A stretch of 64,000 nt of DNA, from contig CANGYJ010000001.1 of assembly GCA_947458455.1 (NCBI GenBank), positions 496,001 to 560,000 on the forward strand, written 5' to 3'. Shown here piece by piece: positions 57,035-59,273 of this stretch. A model generated the notes under the pieces. It searched no databases and was not told the DNA's origin. It saw nothing but the letters and a program-made list of their open reading frames with translations. This DNA is from Verrucomicrobiaceae bacterium. GTDB lineage: Bacteria; Verrucomicrobiota; Verrucomicrobiia; Verrucomicrobiales; Verrucomicrobiaceae. A program made the translations under genes and the position numbers. Numbering within the stretch: the stretch's first letter is position 1; each line of letters starts with the position of its first letter.

Positions 57035-58600
57035 TTACGCCGCCTGCTTGCTCAGGAAATACTCGATGCCATCGACGAGGGCTTTCCAGCTCGCGTCGAT
57101 GATGTTGTAGCTCACGCCGACAGTGCTCCAGGTGGCATTGCCATCGGTGCTGGTGATGAGGACGCGAGTCTTGGCGGCGGTGCCGCTGCTGCTGTCGATG
57201 ATGCGCACCTTGTAATCGGCGAGACGCATTCGTTGGATGGCGGGATACGCGGGGATGAGGGCTTTGCGAAGGGCATTGTCGAGGGCGTTCACCGGGCCGT
57301 CCCCTTCATCTACGGTGTAAACAAGCTGGCCGTTGACGTCGATCTTGATGGTGGCCTCACAGCTTTCAAAGCCGTGCTCGCCACCACGGAAACGGTGGGT
57401 GCTGTGGTACTCGTGAAGTGAAAATGCAGGCGTGTATTGACGGAGCTGCTTGCGGATGAGCATCTCGAAGGAGGCCTCGGCGGCTTCGAATTCGCAGCCT
57501 TCGCTTTCGAGGCGTTTCACCTCGGCGAGGATGCTCTGCACCTTGGGATCGCCCTTGGCAAATTTGAATCCCATGCCTTCCGCCTTCACGAGGACGTTCG
57601 ACTGGCCGGACATGTCTGAGATAGTGATGATGCGCTCATTGCCGACGAGGGTGGGATCGACGTGCTCATAAGTGCGAGCGAGCTTTTGCACCGCGTGAAC
57701 GTGCAGGCCGCCTTTGTGCGTGAAAGCGGCGAGGCCGACGTAAGGCGCACGAATGTCATGCGGCACATTGGCGAGTTCATCCACGAAATGGGCGAGCTCG
57801 CGGAGGTGCGTCAGATCAATGCCGAGCAGGATGCCCATCTTGATCTGGAGGTTCGGCATGATGGTGACGAGGTTGCAGTTCCCGACGCGTTCACCGTAGC
57901 CATTGATGGTGCCTTGCACCTGGCAGGCTCCCGCACGCACAGCAGCGAGTGCATTGGCCACGCCGACGCCGCCGTCGTTATGCGTGTGAATGCCCACGGG
58001 CTTGCCGAGATGGGCGATGGCCTTCTTCGTGACCTCTTCGACGAATTCCGGCAAGGCTCCGCCATTCGTTTCGCAGAGCACCACGAGGTCTGCGCCGGCA
58101 TCGGAAGCGGCTTTGATGGTCTTGAGCGAGTAATCGGGATCTTCGCGGAAGCTGTCGAAGAAGTGCTCGGCATCATACAGCACCTCGCGACCGTGCTTTT
58201 TGAGGTAAGCAACCGTATCCGCGATCATCGCGAGGTTTTCCTCCAAAGTGACCTGGAAGACTTCCGTGACATGCAGCGGCCAGGTTTTGCCCACGATGGT
58301 CACGGCGGGCGTTTTCGCATCCAGAAGCATTTTGACCTGCGGATCGTCCTCGACCTTCATTTTCCCACGGCGGGTCATGCCAAAGGCGGTGATCCGGGCG
58401 GTTTTCCAGGTGCGCTTCGCGGCTTCTTCAAAGAAAGCGGCGTCCTTGGGGTTTGAGCCGGGCCAGCCACCTTCGATGTAGTGAACACCGAATTCATCGA
58501 GCTTTTCGGCCACGCGGATTTTATCGAGGGTGCTGAAGGAGATGCCGGTGCCCTGGGTGCCGTCACGGAGGGTGGTGTCGTAGATGGTAACTGGTGTCAT
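57035..58600 (-). CDS. cimA: Citramalate synthase
   Basis: The 521-residue protein starts at MTPVTIYDTTLRDGTQGTGI (58600). It condenses pyruvate and acetyl-CoA to (R)-citramalate, the first step of the threonine-independent isoleucine route. The catalytic DTTLRDGTQG is at the N-terminus, the metal-binding HTHNDGGVGVAN follows, and the end matches the LeuA-type regulatory domain (FRGGEHGFESCEATIKIDVN). The GTGISFS run and the length favour citramalate over isopropylmalate synthase. The 5' region holds a leader ORF and stems suggesting attenuation. Confidence 0.92.
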   Translation of the reverse strand: MTPVTIYDTTLRDGTQGTGISFSTLDKIRVAEKLDEFGVHYIEGGWPGSNPKDAAFFEEAAKRTWKTARITAFGMTRRGKMKVEDDPQVKMLLDAKTPAVTIVGKTWPLHVTEVFQVTLEENLAMIADTVAYLKKHGREVLYDAEHFFDSFREDPDYSLKTIKAASDAGADLVVLCETNGGALPEFVEEVTKKAIAHLGKPVGIHTHNDGGVGVANALAAVRAGACQVQGTINGYGERVGNCNLVTIMPNLQIKMGILLGIDLTHLRELAHFVDELANVPHDIRAPYVGLAAFTHKGGLHVHAVQKLARTYEHVDPTLVGNERIITISDMSGQSNVLVKAEGMGFKFAKGDPKVQSILAEVKRLESEGCEFEAAEASFEMLIRKQLRQYTPAFSLHEYHSTHRFRGGEHGFESCEATIKIDVNGQLVYTVDEGDGPVNALDNALRKALIPAYPAIQRMRLADYKVRIIDSSSGTAAKTRVLITSTDGNATWSTVGVSYNIIDASWKALVDGIEYFLSKQAA

Positions 58601-58638
58601 TTGAATCAAAGAAAGGAGGTGGTGCCGATGGCCCTGGC

Positions 58639-58792
58639 AAAAGGGGAGAGTGCAACGCCCCTGGTGCATCATCCGGCCATCGTGCGGGAAGGTCACCAGA
58701 TCAAAACGAAACGGACTCTCCCGGCTGCGTTACGCGCTGAGGAGTCCGCTGATAATTCGGATGATCTGGAGGCTGGTGGAAGGCATTCCCAT
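58639..58792 (-). promoter_or_regulatory. Attenuator-like leader of cimA
   Basis: A leader ORF (58792 to 58730) encodes 20 residues with four Ile and three Leu codons. Antiterminator-like stem CGGACTC (58748-58742)/GAGTCCG (58718-58712) and terminator-like stem GGGAGAGT (58722-58715)/ACTCTCCC (58651-58644), followed by CTTTT, share bases and exclude each other. The 5' arm of the first stem lies in the leader codons Ser15 to Leu17, just after the last Ile codons. Confidence 0.6.
58730..58792 (-). CDS. Putative Ile/Leu-rich leader peptide
   Basis: The frame reads MGMPSTSLQIIRIISGLLSA, 20 residues, then TAA. Ile residues are at 10, 11, 13 and 14, Leu at 8, 17 and 18. A start at Met3 (58786) is also possible. 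No strong Shine-Dalgarno sequence is visible. It is too short and too biased for a typical protein, and its place before cimA suggests a regulatory leader. Confidence 0.55.
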   Translation of the reverse strand: MGMPSTSLQIIRIISGLLSA

Positions 58793-58880
58793 GAACAGCG
58801 ATGATTTTAGACACCGTTCAAGCCGATGGCAAAGAGAAGTTTCCCGCCTGGAACCGAAGCGACCACTAAATGCCCGCGTC

Positions 58881-59273
58881 CTATTTTGAATCTTTCAGGT
58901 CAGAGATCGGAATGGCGACCCCATTGGGCTTATTTTGAAGCTCGTTCTTCTCTTCCGCCTTCTTTTTGGCGTCTTCGACCTTGGTAACAGCCTGGGCGGG
59001 CTGAGGGGCAGCTTCGTTGAAGCCATTGAGCATGACGGCCACGAGGGCGATCACGGCTGCGGCAGCAGCCAAGCCCCATTTGGGATTGAGGAAGGCTTCG
59101 AATTTATCACCGAGCATTTGGAGGAAGCGGTCCAAGCCGGACTGCTGCTGCGCGATGTCACGCTGGCGGCGGTGAAACACTTTGATGAAGCTATCCGTGA
59201 AGCCCTCACCGGGTGTTTCATGGCGCTTGAGGCGCATCAGCTTGCGAATGTCTTCGAACTCTTCGTCGTTCAT
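58881..59273 (-). CDS. Putative anti-sigma-factor-like membrane protein
   Basis: The 130-residue protein has a cytoplasmic N-terminus (MNDEEFEDIRKLMRLKRHET, then GFTDSFIKVFHRRQRD), one membrane span (WGLAAAAAVIALVAVMLNGF) and a short charged periplasmic tail. Its position 34 bp after a sigma factor gene suggests an anti-sigma role. A zinc-binding HxxxCxxC motif is absent, so it would not be a typical ZAS protein. The assignment is mostly by context. Confidence 0.6.
   Translation of the reverse strand: MNDEEFEDIRKLMRLKRHETPGEGFTDSFIKVFHRRQRDIAQQQSGLDRFLQMLGDKFEAFLNPKWGLAAAAAVIALVAVMLNGFNEAAPQPAQAVTKVEDAKKKAEEKNELQNKPNGVAIPISDLKDSK

Follow-up and report, generated by a model that had tools for sequence, protein, structure and literature searches.

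Organisation of the cimA leader

We analysed the region upstream of cimA, the gene for citramalate synthase, in a window of 64,000 nucleotides (nt) of DNA from a Verrucomicrobiaceae bacterium (contig CANGYJ010000001.1). The window is the whole of this stretch, and all coordinates are given within it. An initial annotation, made from the sequence alone, had proposed a ribosome-mediated attenuation leader before this gene and had correctly named its product, which matches TIGR00977 with 718 bits (cut-off 450). The features discussed here all lie on the minus strand and are listed from 5' to 3'.

58832..58804, minus strand: promoter-like site, TTGCCA (58832-58827), 17 nt, TAAAAT (58809-58804); 10 of 12 matches
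58792..58730, minus strand: leader open reading frame (ORF), MGMPSTSLQIIRIISGLLSA followed by a stop codon, 20 residues, no Shine-Dalgarno sequence
58769..58696, minus strand: helix P0, CCAGATCA (58769-58762, over the first Ile codon) with TGATCTGG (58703-58696), enclosing P1
58759..58754, minus strand: CGA-ATT (Arg-Ile) codon pair, invariant, its C 11 nt before the first base of P1
58748..58712, minus strand: hairpin P1, CGGACTC and GAGTCCG plus an inner hairpin, with the leader stop codon in the loop
58733..58727, minus strand: site 3, GTAACGC, with the stop codon TAA (58732-58730) in the P1 loop; covaries with site 5
58722..58639, minus strand: proposed terminator, GGGAGAGT (58722-58715) with ACTCTCCC (58651-58644) and CTTTT; not conserved
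58682..58626, minus strand: hairpin H5, arms CGATGGCC (58682-58675) and GGCCATCG (58633-58626), enclosing site 5
58658..58652, minus strand: site 5, GCGTTGC, complementary to site 3 (core 58658-58654)
58600..57035, minus strand: cimA, citramalate synthase, 521 amino acids, with no Shine-Dalgarno sequence and a pyrimidine-rich, G-poor stretch before the ATG

The cimA gene is present in 64 of the 68 genomes of the window's family. We took 63 upstream loci from 62 genomes, omitting G030 and G056 (partial genes), and a further four loci (L035, L037, L041 and L053) were too short to reach the leader, which left 59 usable family loci. The window locus is L001, and two metagenome-assembled genomes (MAGs) of Prosthecobacter sp. 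(L067 and L068) are among the named loci with the same leader. Structure counts exclude L057 and L063, and the leader-peptide count (n = 57) omits L050 and L057. The divergent group E (L054-L056, L058-L061 and L065) was kept out of the comparison of sites 3 and 5 and out of the covariance model because its stop region differs. The alignment used for the covariance model has 36 rows, with close duplicates, L027, L028 and L033 among the further rows omitted; one extra leader at a contig end (L184, genome G001) enters only the match counts of that model.

An isoleucine-rich leader ORF is conserved across the family

The ORF described in the initial annotation, 20 residues long with four Ile codons arranged as Ile-Ile-Arg-Ile-Ile and three Leu codons, is present as drawn. 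The annotation had named conservation of an Ile-rich ORF in related bacteria as a check, and the ORF was found to be conserved: an ATG lies 27, 30 or 33 nt 5' of the CGAATT anchor, open and in frame, in 58 of the 59 family leaders. The frame closes at the stop codon in the P1 loop in 51 of these 58 and directly after the Ile codons in five (L056 and L058-L061). Isoleucine accounts for 212 of the 1017 residues in the 57 closed leader peptides (20.8%), compared with 4.9% in CimA, and an ATG ORF with at least three Ile in six codons occurs in 44 of the 59 family leaders where 0.65 would be expected from shuffles. The Ile cluster exceeds chance. The short ORF, which we predict to be translated, carries several codons for the end product, as attenuator leaders do, and an Ile-sensing leader peptide before cimA is well supported by the comparison.

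A promoter-like site with two hexamers precedes the ORF, its TAAAAT ending 11 nt 5' of the leader ATG. Such a site, with 7-17 nt from its second hexamer to the closest leader ATG, was found in 56 of 58 leaders, and the mean score was 8.5 in leaders against 3.4 in 177 control stretches. From this position, transcription would be expected to begin only a few bases 5' of the ATG, practically at the leader ORF itself. The initial annotation had remarked that the leader has no obvious Shine-Dalgarno sequence, and this is general: a Shine-Dalgarno-like core was found in none of the 58 leader ORFs. A transcript that starts almost at the ORF is a likely answer to its absence. A stretch like AAACTTCYCTTTGCCA (58827-58842), just upstream of and across the -35 hexamer, is common to groups A and B of the leaders and is perhaps an extra promoter element or a regulator site.

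Hairpin P1 follows an invariant codon pair

The first stem of the initial annotation, CGGACTC (58748-58742) with GAGTCCG (58718-58712), lies just after the Ile cluster as it had been placed. Alone, P1 has a predicted energy of -19.8 kcal/mol. The annotation had called for the region 58600-58800 to be folded and its two stems compared; the fold is more stable than expected (z -2.96, 1 of 200 shuffles as good), and its minimum-energy structure contains P1 and lacks the terminator stem. Helix P0 is also part of the minimum-energy fold and of the group B consensus fold, and is shorter in L004-L006. Across the family, P1 stands at a fixed distance after the leader ORF with the stop codon in its loop. 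Paired cells reach 91.7%, above all 500 shuffles, and the number of pairs changed on both sides was equalled in 28 of 500. Group E keeps the P1 hairpin with other letters (GGGCTTCC / GGAAGCCC).

The heptamer CGAATTA (58753-58759) is identical in 46 of 46 aligned leaders, and the degenerate leader L063, outside the alignment, reads CGAATTT. Both codons are rare in cimA, where CGA makes up 52 of 1426 Arg codons and ATT 171 of 1430 Ile codons. P1 begins 11 nt after the C of CGA-ATT, which places a structure beside the control codons where a ribosome would be expected to act on it. With CGA in the P site, the front edge of a ribosome would just meet the base of P1. This spacing may give a partial reason for the constraint on CGAATTA.

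The strength of P1 and the U-rich sequence that follows it in most of group B (TTTCGTTTT in the window) could be read as a sign that, in the window's clade, P1 acts as the terminator and is opened by translation to the stop codon. We consider this very unlikely: by this logic Ile starvation would lower cimA expression, the U-rich tail is absent in group C and most of group A, and site 5 would be left unexplained.

The stop-codon loop of P1 covaries with a downstream site

The stop region of the leader, TRAYGC, has a complement 45-73 nt downstream. An exact complement was found in 43 of 47 clean TRAYGC loci (L008 and L015, which have no clean TRAYGC, were omitted), where 6.7 would be expected from shuffles, and the complement of the other variant was found in none of the 47. 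Across 49 loci, a site 3 with GACGC is accompanied by a site 5 with GCGTC in 27 of 27 cases (including L015, which reads GACGT), AACGC by GCGTT in 15 of 20, and GATGC by GCATC in two of two. The triplet in site 3 remains TGA or TAA in all 49 loci, although in L050 it is out of frame. For the window, segments that extend a little beyond sites 3 and 5 are predicted to form a duplex of -12.2 kcal/mol.

By eye on the cimA tree, the paired changes fall in the clade L001/L004/L005 (with L008 a member and an exception), in the large group C and in L027/L028. In L027 and L028, site 5 changes to the Watson-Crick partner, and within the inner hairpin of P1 the change is accommodated only as a wobble. 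In L051, one of the loci with no GCGTY, all seven nt of CTTAACG and CGTTAAG match instead, and this match overlaps with the 5' arm of a T-tract hairpin that resembles a terminator. The stop-codon loop of P1 thus appears, from this pattern of substitutions, to pair with site 5 downstream. The two sites could form a loop-loop contact, or their pairing could compete with the inner hairpin of P1.

A contact of this kind recalls the pseudoknots of riboswitches, and CGAATTA is invariant as nucleotides in all 46 aligned leaders. Both would suit an RNA that binds a metabolite or a protein through CGAAUUA, P1 and the pseudoknot, the ORF being incidental. However, the frame is kept in 58 of 59 leaders with the ATG at any of three distances, Ile is enriched four-fold, and the covarying triplet remains a stop codon. 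Leaders with Ile runs of other sequence are found in a further family, f3 (see below), and no Rfam family matches the region. A riboswitch-like element is therefore very unlikely.

The proposed terminator stem is not conserved across the family

All elements of the second stem in the initial annotation, GGGAGAGT, ACTCTCCC and CTTTT, are in place in the window. According to this textbook scheme, P1 would be the antiterminator and GGGAGAGT:ACTCTCCC with CTTTT the terminator. We searched each locus for this class of stem (five or more pairs joining the 3' side of P1 to a strand further downstream, with a T-tract after it) against 500 shuffles. The window locus is nominally above shuffles (14 of 500 as good) and L008, with AGGAGA:TCTCCT-TTTT, is borderline (31 of 500), but the stem is poor in the near relative L004 (268 of 500) and none was found in L005. 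Only four of 57 loci, about the number expected by chance, have p ≤ 0.05: L001 and three loci of group A (L010, L015 and L024). As a family feature the GGGAGAGT:ACTCTCCC stem was rejected on this count. Its loop would span 63 nt, and when the window locus is scored for terminators in general, it does no better than shuffles. The textbook attenuator as first drawn is accordingly unlikely. What stands of the ilv/leu logic invoked in the initial annotation is the leader ORF and the first stem; the second stem and its terminator are not supported, and the conserved partner of the stop-codon region is site 5.

In the window, site 5 lies within hairpin H5, a candidate antiterminator or masking hairpin. 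Few of 300 shuffles were as good as H5 in L001 (3), L004 (8), L005 (8), L006 (1), L008 (3), L012 (1), L020 (2), L025 (9) and L026 (1), and in L017 H5 was not above shuffles (158). One pair is changed on both sides in L004 (TGATGGCC/GGCCATCA), and arms of other sequence still pair in L006, L012, L020, L025 and L026. A hairpin around site 5 reaches p ≤ 0.05 in 12 of 49 loci. The best such hairpin in group A is not above shuffles on its own, which suggests that the placement of site 5 in a hairpin loop is strong only in group B.

Several lineages show a predicted antiterminator together with a predicted terminator: the 3' arm of the hairpin around site 5 also belongs to a T-tract hairpin that follows. 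At a threshold of no more than 10 of 200 shuffles, this pattern was found in 19 of 49 loci; for group A, L033, L036 and others, inspection by eye came first and the shuffle test second, and related loci are not independent. The 19 loci are eight of the 14 in group A, L031, L033/L034/L040, L036/L039, L038, L051, L064, and L004 and L005. Within L033/L034/L040, ACCCGGC:GCCGGGT becomes ACCTGGC:GCCAGGT. L004 and L005, near relatives of the window, have the pattern with a weak terminator stem of four pairs. In 14 of 57 loci no more than one of 30 shuffles equalled the intrinsic-terminator score, and in 24 of 57 no more than three did. The OFF step in several related lineages looks like an intrinsic terminator, as judged from these predicted structures. 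In the window, the OFF step may be Rho-dependent or translational.

This last option can be taken further, with the leader peptide controlling Rho-dependent termination or translation of cimA, and the G-poor pyrimidine stretch serving as a Rho entry or ribosome standby site gated by H5 and the pairing of sites 3 and 5. The 60 nt directly 5' of cimA in relatives contain 36% C, 37% T and 10.6% G, compared with 28% G in front of 48 long ORFs from the window (controls chosen by length alone, which may include spurious ORFs). No Shine-Dalgarno-like core precedes the cimA start at any of 59 loci, and no terminator was found in the window locus. Such cores are scarce generally (two of the 48 long ORFs), and pyrimidine-rich leaders may simply be the mode in which these bacteria start translation. 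The T-tract terminator-like hairpins of several sister lineages also speak against control by Rho or translation, which we regard as possible but somewhat doubtful.

In the same interval, directly upstream of cimA, lies CCACCTCCTTT (58612-58622), whose plus-strand sequence is AAAGGAGGTGG; on that strand it sits five bases before the ATG (58628) of an unlisted frame. This is probably chance because the sequence differs in the near relative L004.

Distribution of the leader

We searched 288 genomes of the order with a covariance model built from the anchor and P1, and 49 of them, without exception members of the window's family, gave one match each. Stricter filters were set for this search, at the possible cost of weak matches, and the model did miss several divergent family leaders. 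A cimA gene on the same strand follows 48 of the 49 matches at a distance of 76-167 nt, and the remaining match falls at a contig end. The model found one copy in the genome of the window. Candidate further copies in the same genome were rejected: a pattern allowing up to two mismatches gave 21 matches including the true site, against 23 for a reversed control, and L147, one of two places with a single mismatch, does not have the appearance of a leader. Rfam gave no match in the window at gathering thresholds, and no Rfam family, T-box included, matched 58500-58900 (E up to 5) or 13 relatives (E up to 0.5).

Outside the family, we picked by hand 40 cimA upstream regions among the matches listed (10 from family f4, 18 from f3, one from f5 and 11 from f2). 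An ATG ORF with at least three Ile in six codons precedes cimA in 14 of the 18 f3 leaders, where 0.93 would be expected from shuffles, in one of 10 in f4 and in none of 11 in f2. The f3 examples, such as MDRTISRSIIINAIIIG and MSYFFIISIISNAIITD, differ in sequence from the leaders of the window's family, and many f3 leaders have a different, common RNA sequence after the Ile-run ORF. This suggests that control of cimA by an Ile leader is older than these families or arose more than once. Several of the f3 loci (L227-L243) share a stretch like GGTGATTGCGAATCGGTCTTTTTT with a partner like CCGAATCGGGATCACC after the Ile-run ORF, and some repeat ACCCTGTTGA just before cimA.

Three further observations were made by eye. 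In L069, a MAG labelled Chthoniobacter sp., the cimA ATG is immediately preceded by a promoter-like site, TTGCCA..TAGGTT, an arrangement that would fit loss of the leader. Two deltaproteobacterial MAGs (L132 and L137) have Ile-run leader ORFs (..KNIIIIISATGISISLL.. and ..TATIIIAGIIIRP..) before cimA, followed by a hairpin and a long T-tract, and look like textbook attenuators. In L093, an Abditibacteriaceae MAG, the ORF MMYQESRIIARISKSAVEPVRRC lies far upstream of cimA with two copies of CGAATTA, and a tRNA-like sequence stands between this ORF and cimA.

The genome of the window also encodes a threonine dehydratase regulatory domain (PF00585, G000:C4:207252-207737; L215, L216), so a second route to Ile besides citramalate is probable.

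A model for isoleucine-responsive control of cimA

We propose that the region is probably an isoleucine-responsive, ribosome-mediated attenuator of cimA. Comparison of the family sequences argues for the ORF, its frame and Ile content, the position of the promoter, P1, the covariation of its loop with site 5 and, in the window's clade, H5. From these we infer translation of the ORF, Ile as the signal, the direction of control, the pairing that favours the ON form and the OFF step. According to this model, transcription would begin just before the leader ATG and a ribosome would read the short peptide at once. When charged tRNA-Ile is scarce, the ribosome would wait at the Ile codons, above all at CGA-ATT, with its front edge touching P1. 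P1 would stay folded and its stop-codon loop would be free to pair with site 5, keeping the downstream RNA in a form that allows cimA expression (ON). When Ile is plentiful, the ribosome would reach the stop codon, open P1 and cover the loop; without its pairing to site 5, the downstream RNA would adopt the OFF form.

Such a mechanism would apparently be a new form of ribosome-mediated attenuation, one that uses pairing at the leader stop codon. Its full architecture we put forward tentatively: the loop of the stop-codon hairpin would pair with the loop of a second hairpin, a ribosome at the stop codon would break the contact that otherwise holds the antiterminator or open form, changes in the stop codon and in its pairing would go hand in hand (TGA with GCGTC, TAA with GCGTT), and the whole would be built on an older Ile-leader control in the order.

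Several results weigh against this model. On the side of the leader peptide, one family genome (L057) has cimA without a leader, the sole exception among the 59; the leader of L063 is degenerate; a one-base insertion in L050 breaks the frame after CGA-ATT; and L069, whose CimA is 79% identical, has no CGAATT. A comparison of synonymous and non-synonymous changes gave a clear coding signal in group C and not in groups A and B. CGAATTA is fixed as nucleotides even where the amino acid of the third codon changes, and the A after ATT is thereby kept under a nucleotide-level constraint that goes beyond the peptide. On the side of the RNA, the P1 covariation score is matched or exceeded by 154 of 500 shuffles, for which reason we rejected P1 covariation as stand-alone proof. 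L008 breaks the rule linking sites 3 and 5 (AAACGC with GCGTC), four AACGC loci have no GCGTY, and the covariation amounts to about three independent paired changes. The combined antiterminator and terminator pattern around site 5 is absent from the window locus, and 23 of 30 shuffles have a general terminator score as good as that of this locus, which leaves transcription attenuator a putative label for the window itself.

Comparison with known attenuation systems

In the enterobacterial ilv and leu attenuators (ilvL, ivbL and leuL), the leader peptide is rich in the operon's own amino acid, alternative RNA structures lie beside the control codons, and the position of the stop codon decides which of them forms. 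The cimA leader resembles these in its amino-acid-rich peptide, in the structure by the control codons and in the placement of the stop codon. It differs from them in the gene controlled and in an RNA that probably starts almost at the ATG; moreover, conservation here concerns the predicted pairing of a stop-codon loop with a remote site and does not extend to the terminator. The deltaproteobacterial loci L132 and L137 likewise have an Ile-rich leader before cimA, but with a long T-tract hairpin and, by eye, no recognisable P1 or site 5.

Known cases of attenuation by a leader peptide come mainly from Proteobacteria, Actinobacteria and some Firmicutes. To its authors' knowledge, and in the part of the text available, a 2010 survey stated that, ermC aside, none had been shown outside Proteobacteria and Actinobacteria before their own case in Firmicutes (PMC2965389). 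Among the literature matches listed, no title concerned a cimA leader or a verrucomicrobial attenuator; judged by titles and abstracts, neither "citramalate synthase" with "leader peptide" nor leader-peptide attenuators with Verrucomicrobia returned anything on the subject. Attenuation before cimA across a verrucomicrobial family and f3 would, if true, widen the range of the mechanism and would add control at the RNA level for cimA. A stop-codon loop with a covarying distant partner would be a new and testable way for an RNA to read the position of a ribosome, and the natural variants TGA/GCGTC and TAA/GCGTT offer ready-made compensatory pairs.

Two described groups of elements come close. As far as the available part of the source goes, the ilvB-II, ilvB-OMG and ilvB uORF motifs are conserved RNAs in which the leader ORF is rich in branched-chain amino acids (PMC10272879); the theme of such an ORF before a biosynthetic gene is the same, but the gene there is ilvB, and the window and the 13 relatives match no Rfam family. 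The nearest anatomy that we found described is that of the LEU element before leuA in Actinobacteria, which, in the portion of the paper available, combines a leader peptide with a pseudoknot and has no clear terminator (PMC1262725). The likeness is one of anatomy. The LEU element responds to Leu and its base stem is formed by Leu codons and a Shine-Dalgarno box; at cimA the control codons are for Ile and a Shine-Dalgarno-like core precedes none of the 59 starts; on this partial description, the cimA leader is therefore not a member of the LEU element, with which it shares a leader peptide and a long-range contact of the predicted pseudoknot kind.
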